DNA of 33,902 nt, taken from assembly GCA_008017065.1 (NCBI GenBank), contig SSGT01000021.1, positions 1 through 33,902 on the forward strand, given 5' to 3'. Position 1 is the stretch's first letter; the number at the start of each line of letters is the position of its first letter. Below the pieces are notes generated by a model. That model saw nothing but the letters and a program-made list of their open reading frames with translations, was not told the origin of the DNA and made no database searches. A program made the translations under genes and the position numbers. The DNA is from Crocinitomicaceae bacterium (GTDB lineage Bacteria; Bacteroidota; Bacteroidia; Flavobacteriales_D; Crocinitomicaceae). Of this stretch, positions 1 to 31,395 are shown piece after piece.

Positions 1-161
1 ACCTCCTGTTCATGCGGAGCTAAGTGTTGCGTAACGGTTAAGCAACGGATAAGATCGCCGTTTCCCCGAGAAGCAAAACGCTGCGTAATTCGAGGTATCA
101 TTCTCGTTAAAACCTCCTGTTCATGCGGACCTAAGTGTTGCGTAACGGTTAGGCAACGGAT
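1..161 (+). repeat. Two copies (1-50 and 112-161, offset 111 bp) of ACCTCCTGTTCATGCGGAsCTAAGTGTTGCGTAACGGTTArGCAACGGAT
   Basis: Direct reading: the two 50-bp segments differ at about 2 positions; each contains an imperfect inverted repeat GTTGCGTAAC-G-GTTArGCAAC (26-46, 137-157). The array may continue upstream of the window. Confidence 0.9.
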
Positions 162-326: not shown

Positions 327-1283
327 ATGAAAAATAGAATTACACACTTATTTAACATAAAATATCCAATTATTCAGGCAGGGATGATTTGGTGCTCGGG
401 CTGGGAACTCGCAGCCGCTGTTTCAAATGCAGGAGGATTAGGAATAATCGGTTCCGGATCGATGTATCCAGAAATTTTGGATCAGCACATTCAAAAATGC
501 AAAGCAGCAACCGACAAACCGTTTGCAGTTAATCTACCCATGTTATATCCTGACATCGACAAGCACATCGAAACTATTATCAAATACCAAGTTCCAATTG
601 TGTTTACTTCCGCAGGAAATCCGAAGACATGGACCAAAAAATTGCAAGAGCACGGGATCGTTGTGGTGCACGTTGTTTCGAGTGTAAAGTTTGCATTGAA
701 AGCACAGGAAGCGGGCGTGGATGCTGTTGTTGCTGAAGGCTTTGAAGCGGGTGGTCACAATGGACGCGACGAAACAACCACTTTCTGCCTCATCCCAATG
801 GTAGCCGAAGCGATCGACATTCCGTTAATTGCCGCAGGTGGTATCGGAACAGGAAAAGGAATGTTAGCTGCCTTAAATCTCGGTGCTGATGCCGTCCAAA
901 TTGGTAGTCGATTTGTGGCGACACCTGAATCAAGTGCTCATACCAATTTCAAACAATGCGTCATAGAATCAAACGAAGGAGACACGTTGCTCACGCTGAA
1001 AGAGCTTACTCCAGTGCGACTCTTGAAAAATCCATTCTTCGACCAAGTTCAGGAAGCGTATCAAAACGATGCAACGGTCGAGGAGCTAACCGCTTTACTC
1101 GGACGAGGTAGAGCAAAAAAAGGAATGTTTGAAGGCGACTTGATCGAAGGAGAATTAGAAATCGGCCAAGTGGCAGGATTAATCAAAGAGATCAAACCCG
1201 CAGCCGATATCGTTTCGGAAATTATTACAGAATACAAAGAAGCAATTGCATTACAAACCTCTGAAAAATTTACATTTGAATGA
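327..1283 (+). CDS. Nitronate monooxygenase / FabK-like enoyl-ACP reductase II family flavoprotein
   Basis: N-term YPIIQAGMIWCSGWELAAAVSNAGGLGIIGSGSM; AEGFEAGGHNGRD; PLIAAGGIGTGKGMLAALNLGADAVQIGSRF, all typical of the NMO/FabK family. Confidence 0.9.
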   Translation: MKNRITHLFNIKYPIIQAGMIWCSGWELAAAVSNAGGLGIIGSGSMYPEILDQHIQKCKAATDKPFAVNLPMLYPDIDKHIETIIKYQVPIVFTSAGNPKTWTKKLQEHGIVVVHVVSSVKFALKAQEAGVDAVVAEGFEAGGHNGRDETTTFCLIPMVAEAIDIPLIAAGGIGTGKGMLAALNLGADAVQIGSRFVATPESSAHTNFKQCVIESNEGDTLLTLKELTPVRLLKNPFFDQVQEAYQNDATVEELTALLGRGRAKKGMFEGDLIEGELEIGQVAGLIKEIKPAADIVSEIITEYKEAIALQTSEKFTFE

Positions 1284-6432: not shown

Positions 6433-6909
6433 ATGGAAAAAGAAAATTATTCGTTCGATTATCAATTGGATCACATCGACGAACACATTTTAGCACTGTT
6501 GGTTGAGAATGCGAAACTCGGCTCAAAAGAAATTGCTTCATCCGTTGGATTGACTGTAACGCCAACCTATGAGCGGATTCGACGGCTCGAAAAACGCGGA
6601 TTTATCAAACGGTATAAAGCGGTTCTCGACAAGAAAAAAATGGGAAAAAATCTCCGGGTTTTGTGCAATGTACAACTCAAATCACACGCTGCCGAATTTA
6701 TCGAATCATTTGAATCGCAAGTAATAGAACTCTCGGAGGTCACAAGTTGCTTTCACATCGCTGGAAATTTCGATTATCTATTAATCATCGATATAGTAGA
6801 CATGGACGAATATGCTGAATTTTTGAAGGAAAAATTGGCATCGATTCCGCATATCGCAACTGTTCAGAGTTCTTTTGTCATGCATGCACTGAAGGACAAC
6901 GATTTTTAA
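6433..6909 (+). CDS. Lrp/AsnC family transcriptional regulator
   Basis: N-term HTH (LDHIDEHILALLVENAKLGSKEIASSVGLTVTPTYERIRRLEKRGFIKRYKAVLD) plus RAM-like domain; divergent from the PLP enzyme. Confidence 0.93.
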   Translation: MEKENYSFDYQLDHIDEHILALLVENAKLGSKEIASSVGLTVTPTYERIRRLEKRGFIKRYKAVLDKKKMGKNLRVLCNVQLKSHAAEFIESFESQVIELSEVTSCFHIAGNFDYLLIIDIVDMDEYAEFLKEKLASIPHIATVQSSFVMHALKDNDF

Positions 6910-13028: not shown

Positions 13029-13652
13029 TTATGCTTCTTCCGTAAATTCATCTTCAAATTCACTGTCAACATCTGTGTCGTCGAACGTTTCATCGTCTTC
13101 ATCCTCGTCTTCAAGTTCATCATCTAAATCGGAGCCTGGAGCTGAATATACGCGTTTCCCTGTTTGAATAATTGGTTCATCCTCCAACTCGATCAGTGGT
13201 TTTCGAGAGATTTCTCTATCTAGATCTTCGACGTATGGAAAAATATCTACGATTGGAGAAACGGTAATTGATGGAATCAAAAAATCTACCAACATCGTGG
13301 ATAAACTTTCATGCATTCGATCGTATGCTTCTTTTACGGAATGTGCTCCGATCAGGAAATTCTGCGAAACTTTCTTCGGTTTGTCTGAATCTTCTGTCGC
13401 ACCCTCAAAGGAAATTTTACATTTGTACCACGTGTCGCTGTCTTCGTACTGGAAAATATCATGAAAGTCTGTTCGCGCTATATTTGTTACTGTAAATTCG
13501 CCTCGAATAATTGAACCTAACTCTTCGTAAATCCGAGCTTCAGCGTCTGTAAAAGTCATAGCAGCCAACAAATAAGGCTCAGAAACGCGCTTAAACGCCC
13601 CGTTTTCCAGTTGTTTTGTATATTTTACTTTTACGGTAAACCAATTGTTCAT
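13029..13652 (-). CDS. DUF4494-type protein with strongly acidic C-terminal tail
   Basis: N-term MNNWFTVKVKYTKQLENGAFKRVSEPYLLAAMTFTDAEARIYEEL resembles DUF4494; tail DDELEDEDEDDETFDDTDVDSEFEDEFTEEA. Confidence 0.75.
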   Translation of the reverse strand: MNNWFTVKVKYTKQLENGAFKRVSEPYLLAAMTFTDAEARIYEELGSIIRGEFTVTNIARTDFHDIFQYEDSDTWYKCKISFEGATEDSDKPKKVSQNFLIGAHSVKEAYDRMHESLSTMLVDFLIPSITVSPIVDIFPYVEDLDREISRKPLIELEDEPIIQTGKRVYSAPGSDLDDELEDEDEDDETFDDTDVDSEFEDEFTEEA

Positions 13653-13882
13653 ACTGTGTATTTTTATTCAAAATCTGAACTGATTTTGAAGGATTATAAA
13701 CTCATTTAATTGTGGTACAAAATTACACAAATGATTTGTGAATTACTTGCTTTACGAATTGTTATTTCGCTTCATGAAGTCAGTTTGATAATTCACCTAG
13801 CGGAAGCGATTTGATGATAAATCGACTTGGAATCGGAATGCTGGCGCGCTGGATACCTGACTATTTATTTAGTGGAATAACG

Positions 13883-13903
13883 GTTGCGTAACCGTTACGC
13901 AAC
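13883..13903 (-). repeat. Perfect 10-1-10 inverted repeat GTTGCGTAAC-C-GTTACGCAAC
   Basis: Direct reading; same core as 14167-14187 and (1 mismatch) 26-46, 137-157. Confidence 0.9.
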
Positions 13904-13964
13904 ACTTAGACCCCCTATTTTAGCCGATTTCCGAAAACACCAACCAAAATATCCGCAAAAAAAA

Positions 13965-14086
13965 CTACAATTGAAATAGGCATATCCAAATTGTTCTCGC
14001 GTAGCGAAAATTGAAAAAACGCAACAACAACAATCCTGAAATCAGCACCAGAAAGAGCAAGTCAAACGAAAGGAACGGAAAACAAA
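13965..14086 (-). pseudogene. Duplicated 3'-terminal fragment of the DUF983 gene
   Basis: Minus-strand reading gives LCFPFLSFDLLFLVLISGLLLLRFFNFRYARTIWICLFQL* versus intact gene CICFPFLSFEMLFLVLILGLLLLSFFNFRYARTIWIYLFQL*; no N-terminal part present. Confidence 0.85.
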
Positions 14087-14162
14087 GCTACCAAATTGAT
14101 TTCGAAGTATATTTTAACTACGAATCGCAATACTGGATACCTGACTATTTATTTAGTGGAAT

Positions 14163-14187
14163 AACGGTTACGTAACCGTTACGCAAC
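14163..14187 (-). repeat. Perfect 18-bp palindrome AACGGTTACGTAACCGTT (14163-14180) overlapping the 21-bp inverted repeat (14167-14187)
   Basis: Direct reading. Confidence 0.85.
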
Positions 14188-14248
14188 ACTTATACCCCCT
14201 ATTTTAGTGGATTTTCGAACTCACCGAACAAAATAACAGCAAAAAAAA

Positions 14249-14590
14249 CTACAATTGAAATAGGTATATCCAAATTGTTCTCGCGTAACGAAAATTGAAA
14301 AAACTCAACAACAACAATCCCAAAATTAGCACAAGAAAAAGCATTTCAAATGAAAGGAACGGAAAACAAATGCAAAAAAGAAAAAGCATTTCTGCAACCG
14401 CAAGTGCGTAACTCACATACAACGAACCAATAAAATAGCCTGGTTCTTTCTCAAATTTGTATCCGCAACTTGAACAAACTGCATGCATTCTGGGTGCTCG
14501 AAGCACAAACACATTTCCATTATCCTCAAAAATTTTTCCGGTCTTACATTTTGGACATTTACAGCGAACGATACCTTGAAAATTGGTCAT
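14249..14590 (-). CDS. DUF983 family small membrane protein
   Basis: Zinc-ribbon-like CxxC pairs (CKCPKCKTGKIF ... CSSCGYKFEKEPGYFIGSLYVSYALAVAE) followed by two hydrophobic helices. Confidence 0.88.
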   Translation of the reverse strand: MTNFQGIVRCKCPKCKTGKIFEDNGNVFVLRAPRMHAVCSSCGYKFEKEPGYFIGSLYVSYALAVAEMLFLFCICFPFLSFEMLFLVLILGLLLLSFFNFRYARTIWIYLFQL

Positions 14591-14685
14591 TTTTTTGTTG
14601 TAAAATTACGGTCTACATGTAGATTGGCGAAATACAAAAAACTCAATTAACAGGACAAAAGGCACATTTTGTGTATTTTTACAGC

Positions 14686-15594
14686 ATGAAGAAAACAACG
14701 ATTCTTGATATTAAAGCCTTTGAAGACAAAGCGACACTCGAAGAATTTTACTGTAATCGCTTTGACAGACACTTGGAAAAGAATCACCGCGAAATTTCAA
14801 TTCCACACAAACACAACTTCTATCTCGTTGTATTATTTACAGCGGGAACAGGTTTCCACGAAATCGATTTCATTCGCTTCGACGTACAACGAGGAAGCGT
14901 ATTCTTTTTGTCGCCTGGGCAAACGCATCATTGGGAATTCAGCACTCCGGCAAATGGCTTTATTTTCTTTCATTCAGATACATTTTTTGAGCTCAATTTT
15001 ACACAACAACGCCTTTCACAATTTCCGTTCTATTACTCTTCGCAAAATGTCCCGATGGTTCTACTTTCTGAACATCAAACGGAAAAAATGGAGAAAGAAT
15101 TCAGTGCTCTTTTCCACGAAACAACCCAAATTCAACTTTACAGAAAACAAAAAATCGTCCAACTAATGGATGGTATTTACATCGACTTAGCGCGAATTTA
15201 CTTATCGGAAACGCAAACGAAACAAGCCGTAAAATCCAACTATTCACAACAGATCAAAATGCTTGAAAACCATATAAACCGGCACTACAAACTTCAAAAA
15301 TCGCCCTCGTTTTATGCGGATCAAATGCATGTTTCAACCAAGCATCTCAATCGAATTGTCAACGAATCGATTGGCAAGACAACCTCTACCCTCATTTCTG
15401 AACGAATTTTGTTGGAAGCAAAACGTTATCTATGCAACCCATCCATGAATATCGTTGAAATTGCAACCGAATTGGGATTTGAGGACAGTGCCTATTTCTC
15501 GCGCTTTTTCCGAAAAAACGAAGGGATGCGACCAACAGAGTTTAGATCCAAATACATCACTGTCTCGTCCAAACACGCTGTGGAAAACGAGTAG
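14686..15594 (+). CDS. AraC family transcriptional regulator (track start 14671; ATG 14686 MKKTT also plausible)
   Basis: N-term cupin-like segment; C-term HTH HVSTKHLNRIVNESIGKTTSTLISERILLEAKRYL...IVEIATELGFEDSAYFSRFFRKNEGMRPTEFR. Confidence 0.95.
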   Translation: MKKTTILDIKAFEDKATLEEFYCNRFDRHLEKNHREISIPHKHNFYLVVLFTAGTGFHEIDFIRFDVQRGSVFFLSPGQTHHWEFSTPANGFIFFHSDTFFELNFTQQRLSQFPFYYSSQNVPMVLLSEHQTEKMEKEFSALFHETTQIQLYRKQKIVQLMDGIYIDLARIYLSETQTKQAVKSNYSQQIKMLENHINRHYKLQKSPSFYADQMHVSTKHLNRIVNESIGKTTSTLISERILLEAKRYLCNPSMNIVEIATELGFEDSAYFSRFFRKNEGMRPTEFRSKYITVSSKHAVENE

Positions 15595-31325: not shown

Positions 31326-31395
31326 TAAAAGAACAAGAGCTTTAGACGGGCGTCTAAAGCTCTTGCTACACTAATCAACCTAACCTACTACTACT
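31326..31395 (-). ncRNA. Candidate small RNA (about 65-70 nt) with own promoter and intrinsic terminator
   Basis: Minus strand: TTG (31429-31427)-N19-TACCTTTG (31407-31400); then CCCAGTAGTAGTAGGTTAGGTTGATTAGTGTAG; then perfect 14-bp hairpin (31334-31365) followed by TTCTTTT. Confidence 0.5.
31334..31365. terminator. Perfect 14-bp stem, 4-nt loop hairpin CAAGAGCTTTAGAC-GGGC-GTCTAAAGCTCTTG
   Basis: Direct reading; U-rich 3' flank on the minus strand. Confidence 0.7.

Follow-up and report, generated by a model that had tools for sequence, protein, structure and literature searches.

Repeat copies and neighbouring genes

The stretch of DNA analysed here, referred to as the window, comprises the 33,902 nucleotides of contig C63 in the draft genome of a Crocinitomicaceae bacterium (2.4 Mb in 211 contigs, 73% complete). 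The window contains 4 matches to CTAAGTGTTGCGTAACGGTTANGCAACGG, compared to 0 expected by chance (100 dinucleotide shuffles). These matches and the features surrounding them are as follows:

1..161, + strand: end of a tandem array with a 111-bp unit; contig C188 opens with the same unit on the opposite strand
20..48, + strand: repeat copy 1; core palindrome at 26-46 with one mismatch (G/A)
131..159, + strand: repeat copy 2, the last copy of the array; core palindrome at 137-157 with one mismatch (G/G)
327..1283, + strand: nitronate monooxygenase-family gene, downstream of the window-start array
13029..13652, - strand: DUF4494 gene, neighbour of copies 3 and 4 on the side opposite the zinc-ribbon gene
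13849..14370, - strand: tandem duplication of 238 nt at 91% identity, 284 nt from start to start, carrying copies 3 and 4
13881..13909, - strand: repeat copy 3; core at 13883-13903 with a perfect 9-bp stem and a 3-nt loop
14165..14193, - strand: repeat copy 4; core at 14167-14187 with one G-T pair and A rather than C as its first base
14249..14590, - strand: intact gene for a 113-aa zinc-ribbon membrane protein, neighbour of the locus, without a Pfam name

The core matches at 26-46 and 137-157 (+ strand) and at 13883-13903 and 14167-14187 (- strand) agree with the first-pass annotation, which had placed 2 cores at the window start, at a distance of 111 bp, and 2 on the opposite strand near 13.9-14.2 kb, the last of them with a changed first base. 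Its description of the cores as palindromes also holds: that at 13883 is perfect, while each of the other 3 carries a single mismatch. Its remark that the flanks differ is correct between the 2 loci, but not within either of them, where the flanks belong to a longer repeat. Positions 1-50 and 112-161 are 96% identical over 50 bp, with a start-to-start distance of 111 bp, while positions 13849-14086 and 14133-14370 are 91% identical. Each of the 284-bp units includes the 3' end of the gene for the zinc-ribbon membrane protein, positions 13968-14096 representing a decayed copy of that 3' end. The 113-aa protein presumably resembles DUF983. The gene content, with DUF4494 and a ribosomal neighbourhood, would fit a Flavobacteriales-like member of the Bacteroidota. 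A strong hairpin, CAAGAGCTTTAGACGGGCGTCTAAAGCTCTTG, is located at window positions 31334-31365 between tsf and a response-regulator gene, and falls outside the repeat family.

Dispersal of the repeat in the draft genome

A search of the organism's own draft genome, allowing up to three mismatches, identified at least 9 full copies and 1 cut-off copy, distributed over 3 contigs and 3 intergenic clusters:

C63: full copies at 26, 137, 13883 and 14167
C188: full copies at 105 and 217; cut-off copy at 1-20
C103: full copies at 6894, 7044 and 7246, a cluster upstream of pyrH

The first-pass annotation would have settled for a local duplication had the genome held only the 4 copies in the window; the 5 additional full copies and the cut-off copy on C188 and C103 remove that objection. 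All 9 full copies lie between genes at the 3 loci, as do REP sequences, and within each cluster all copies share the same orientation. The 3 copies on C103, which precede pyrH, separate it from a divergent 156-aa ORF. Since C188 and C63 both start inside the 111-bp array, in matching orientations, they are probably the two sides of one assembly break that splits the array between them. The copies at the C188 and C63 ends differ, and an array spanning the break would therefore have at least 5 units.

We also noted that tsf (window 30932) and pyrH (C103:7437) are separated in this genome, while they are adjacent in 3 same-genus relatives. We considered whether the repeat copies mark a gene-order breakpoint at this split, but did not rely on this reading because gene order varies freely among members of the genus, and because the menA-like/second nitronate monooxygenase neighbourhood is common to this genome and that of relative G003.

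Organization of the repeat unit

Between loci, 24-26 of 27 core bases match, whereas the 24 bases to the left and the 28 to the right are at background level. As delimited by these comparisons, the conserved unit is therefore about 29 bp in length, corresponding approximately to CTAAGTGTTGCGTAACGGTTANGCAACGG. In the unit, the conserved 5' flank CTAAGT leads into an imperfect hairpin (the 21-bp core) with a 9-bp stem, which tolerates a mismatch at its middle, and a 3-nt loop. It is asymmetric, 8 of the 9 copies retaining TAAGT of the 5' flank, and in 5 of the 9 the bases at the central stem position do not pair. When the 8 distinct copies were folded as single-stranded DNA (z-scores of -1.0 to -3.8), 7 formed a stem-loop covering most of the stem; that at C103:7246 folded weakly, with a 5-bp stem only. 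The stem displayed no covariation, a test that says little either way with 5 invariant pairs. Neither 1-400 nor 13600-14700 contained a terminator-like site (a G+C-rich hairpin followed by a T run), and no Rfam family matched the window at the gathering threshold.

Distribution outside the genome

With up to two mismatches allowed, the repeat was absent from 4 same-genus genomes and from the rest of the 58 genomes searched, and 240 family and 393 order genomes yielded single, chance-like matches only. A one-mismatch match in G134 (a single copy) and a two-mismatch match in G364 (a single copy inside a coding frame) were both read as chance. Exact scans of genome contigs and viral contigs returned 5 single matches in distant taxa, with unrelated flanks and none of them locally repeated; this is approximately the number expected for an 18-base pattern, and these were likewise set aside. 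Nucleotide searches of plasmids with both regions, searches of phages with the window-start region, and a literature search for the repeat sequence gave no match. Judged by sequence comparison, the repeat is species-specific.

The first-pass annotation had proposed that absence from relatives would also point to a local duplication. The repeat is indeed absent from them, but species specificity is also what has been reported of REP families (PMC6006769), and 3 unlinked loci are not accounted for by local duplication. As far as the alignments can tell, simple local duplication cannot explain the dispersal of the repeat, because the clusters have only ~29 bp in common, within otherwise unrelated flanks.

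Comparison with REP/BIME sequences and IS200/IS605 elements

The repeat shares several properties with REP/BIME sequences and their RAYT (TnpA-REP) enzymes: it is a short imperfect hairpin within the 20-40 bp size range (a 21-bp core in a ~29-bp unit), it is intergenic, species-specific and clustered, and it has conserved unpaired bases at its 5' foot. It nevertheless departs from them in copy number, with about ten copies (9 of them full) in 2.4 Mb compared to dozens to hundreds, and in its 5' flank, which reads CTAAGT rather than the GTAG/GTGG or CGTC reported as REP 5'-foot tags (PMC3733652, PMC6006769). Its pairs are direct, with a single orientation in each cluster, instead of inverted as in BIMEs and REPINs, and searches of the 73% complete genome revealed no Y1/RAYT gene. 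What stands of the REP/BIME-like assignment in the first-pass annotation is a dispersed, extragenic hairpin family of at least 9 copies at 3 loci with unrelated flanks between loci; a proven REP/BIME assignment is not supported. Since copy number and tag both differ from those of REPs and the cognate gene was not found, the window repeat should not be filed as a REP, albeit it may still work like one.

Enzymes of the IS200/IS605 class act on a hairpin with a short 5' flank that is recognised as a single strand (PMC6006769). The window repeat, also a hairpin with a short 5' flank, resembles the subterminal hairpins of these elements in this respect, but neither an insertion sequence body nor a transposase lies between the window copies.

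Hairpin arrays at Y1 transposase genes of relatives

Neither Pfam PF01797 nor an alignment of 9 relatives' proteins (E<=1) identified a Y1 transposase in the organism's own 73% complete genome. Two of the three repeat loci are contiguous in the assembly, and neither contains a Y1 gene. The same-genus relatives possess two to four Y1 transposase genes each. The relatives' Y1 proteins that we inspected, among them one from an interrupted ORF (L013), carry D-H-[ILV]-H, mostly W-Q, and Y-I-x-N-Q-x-x-H-H. These motifs together match the published signature of TnpA-Y1 subclass 1.2, which a survey of that family lists without REP sequences (PMC6006769). NCBIfam models scored 4 of the Y1 proteins as IS200/IS605 transposases, below the RAYT cut-off.

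We defined an array as two or more similar short hairpins within 900 bp of a Y1 gene. Such arrays were found at 9 of 22 Y1 loci from the genus, family and order compared to 0 of 59 control windows taken from relatives (Fisher P 2e-6), although the control windows were mostly coding, and part of the excess may reflect intergenic sequence. Within the genus, 4 of 12 Y1 loci had an array; over the full set, 13 of 22 had none. Each species has its own hairpin sequence: in G003, CGATGGGCTAACACCCATCG flanks the Y1 gene on either side at intervals of ~73 bp, with 15 of its 16 copies there and one elsewhere, and in G001, TTAGCCCTGCTAGGGCTAA is found only beside the Y1 gene. These arrays resemble the window repeat in consisting of short hairpins in direct tandem units (tens to ~100 bp) with a sequence of the species' own, the 73-bp array of G003 being comparable to the 111-bp array of the window. 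In contrast, the 2 relatives for which copies were counted keep their hairpins beside Y1, while 3 clusters without Y1 are present here, and the stem sequences of the relatives are unrelated to that of the window repeat.

Several further observations concern the Y1 genes of the relatives. In the arrays at L012, L095 and L024, the stems differ and pairing is kept (CGACCC/GGGTCG, TGACCC/GGGTCA, CAACCCC/GGGGTTG); since stems within one array vary yet still pair, this suggests that the hairpin form is maintained in these Y1-flanking arrays. Two related Y1 genes from different genera sit between hairpins of a second, longer type, TTAACATAGGGTGCAGCCCTATGTTAA in G003:C24 (L096:1453-1479 and L096:2623-2645) and ATTAACAATGGGTGAAGCCCATTGTTAAT in G019:C130 (L019:801-823 and L019:1734-1762); these longer hairpins look like IS-type ends. 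At L097, L099 and L016 (G003, G004 and G002, respectively), the Y1 genes are accompanied by single long perfect palindromes instead of arrays, with arms of up to 26 bp, on one or both sides of the gene.

Origin of the repeat

We favor the view, at a probability of roughly 0.45, that the repeat is a species-specific, low-copy, REP-like hairpin family whose enzyme is encoded in the unassembled part of the genome or has been lost. The ~29-bp unit would have reached 3 intergenic sites by copying, after which further direct copies would have arisen locally at each. An IS200-like Y1 HUH nuclease of the subclass 1.2 type would recognise the hairpin of this unit in single-stranded form, with copying taking place during replication or repair of the nuclease cuts. 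This putative nuclease may be encoded somewhere in the 27% missing from the assembly, the C188-C63 break being one possible place, or its gene may no longer be present. Ordinary slippage or unequal exchange could account for the local multiplication just as well. In favor of such a REP-like hairpin family are the 9 copies at 3 loci, the identity of the core against background flanks, the folding as single-stranded DNA and the species specificity, to which the relatives add an analogy, their Y1 genes often being flanked by similar short hairpin arrays. Against it are the failure to find a Y1 gene in this genome, where the repeat is dispersed without one, unlike in the 2 relatives counted; a stem without covariation and with its central pair unpaired in 5 of 9 copies; the lack of a hairpin sequence in common with the relatives; and the 13 of 22 Y1 loci without an array.

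The main rival, to which we give distinctly less weight, holds that the repeat is not mobile and has no dedicated enzyme: recombination or gene conversion would have dispersed it in the past, with slippage and unequal crossing-over raising its copy number. Local multiplication at every locus, including the 284-bp unit that copies the 3' end of a gene, fits such a history, as do the lack of a detected transposase in the 73% complete genome and of relatives with the repeat. It does not, however, account for only ~29 bp sitting in 3 unrelated flanks, nor for the comparable arrays at the Y1 genes of relatives. We consider it unlikely that the copies are instead operator-type binding sites of a dimeric regulator, upstream of the neighbouring genes. 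The palindromic core is of operator size, and, read directly from the sequence, copies lie ~80-230 bp upstream of the starts of the nitronate monooxygenase-family, mnmD-like, pyrH, ORF156 and DUF4494 genes. This explanation loses ground because conservation extends beyond the palindrome on one side only (CTAAGT) and because, in relatives, the regions preceding pyrH and the nitronate monooxygenase gene lack the site; operators would also not usually be spaced in tandem units of 111 and 284 bp.

A recombination site, e.g. integron attC-like or Xer-type, is highly improbable. A single orientation, variable spacing and a folded hairpin would be in keeping with one. However, attC sites carry RYYYAAC at the 5' outer end and GTTRRRY at the 3' outer end, and on inspection this layout is reversed or absent in the cores. 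Moreover, with a spacing of 111-284 bp, the copies enclose no cassette genes, and no integrase gene is present among the neighbouring ORFs inspected.

Returning to the REP-like hairpin family with a Y1 enzyme, a broader proposal, which we regard as tentative and rather doubtful, is that subclass 1.2 Y1 nucleases of the family and order have cognate hairpins, arranged in direct arrays around their genes and changing completely from one species to the next, and that the window repeat is one of these, dispersed from its enzyme. Taken alone, the window repeat is a small unnamed repeat family, which behaves like a small, fast-changing member of a class of hairpin repeats already known from bacteria. 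Should its link to subclass 1.2 Y1 proteins hold, the repeat would represent a candidate DNA substrate for domesticated-looking transposases, and a low-copy, direct-array form would be added to the known lifestyles of hairpin repeats in bacteria.
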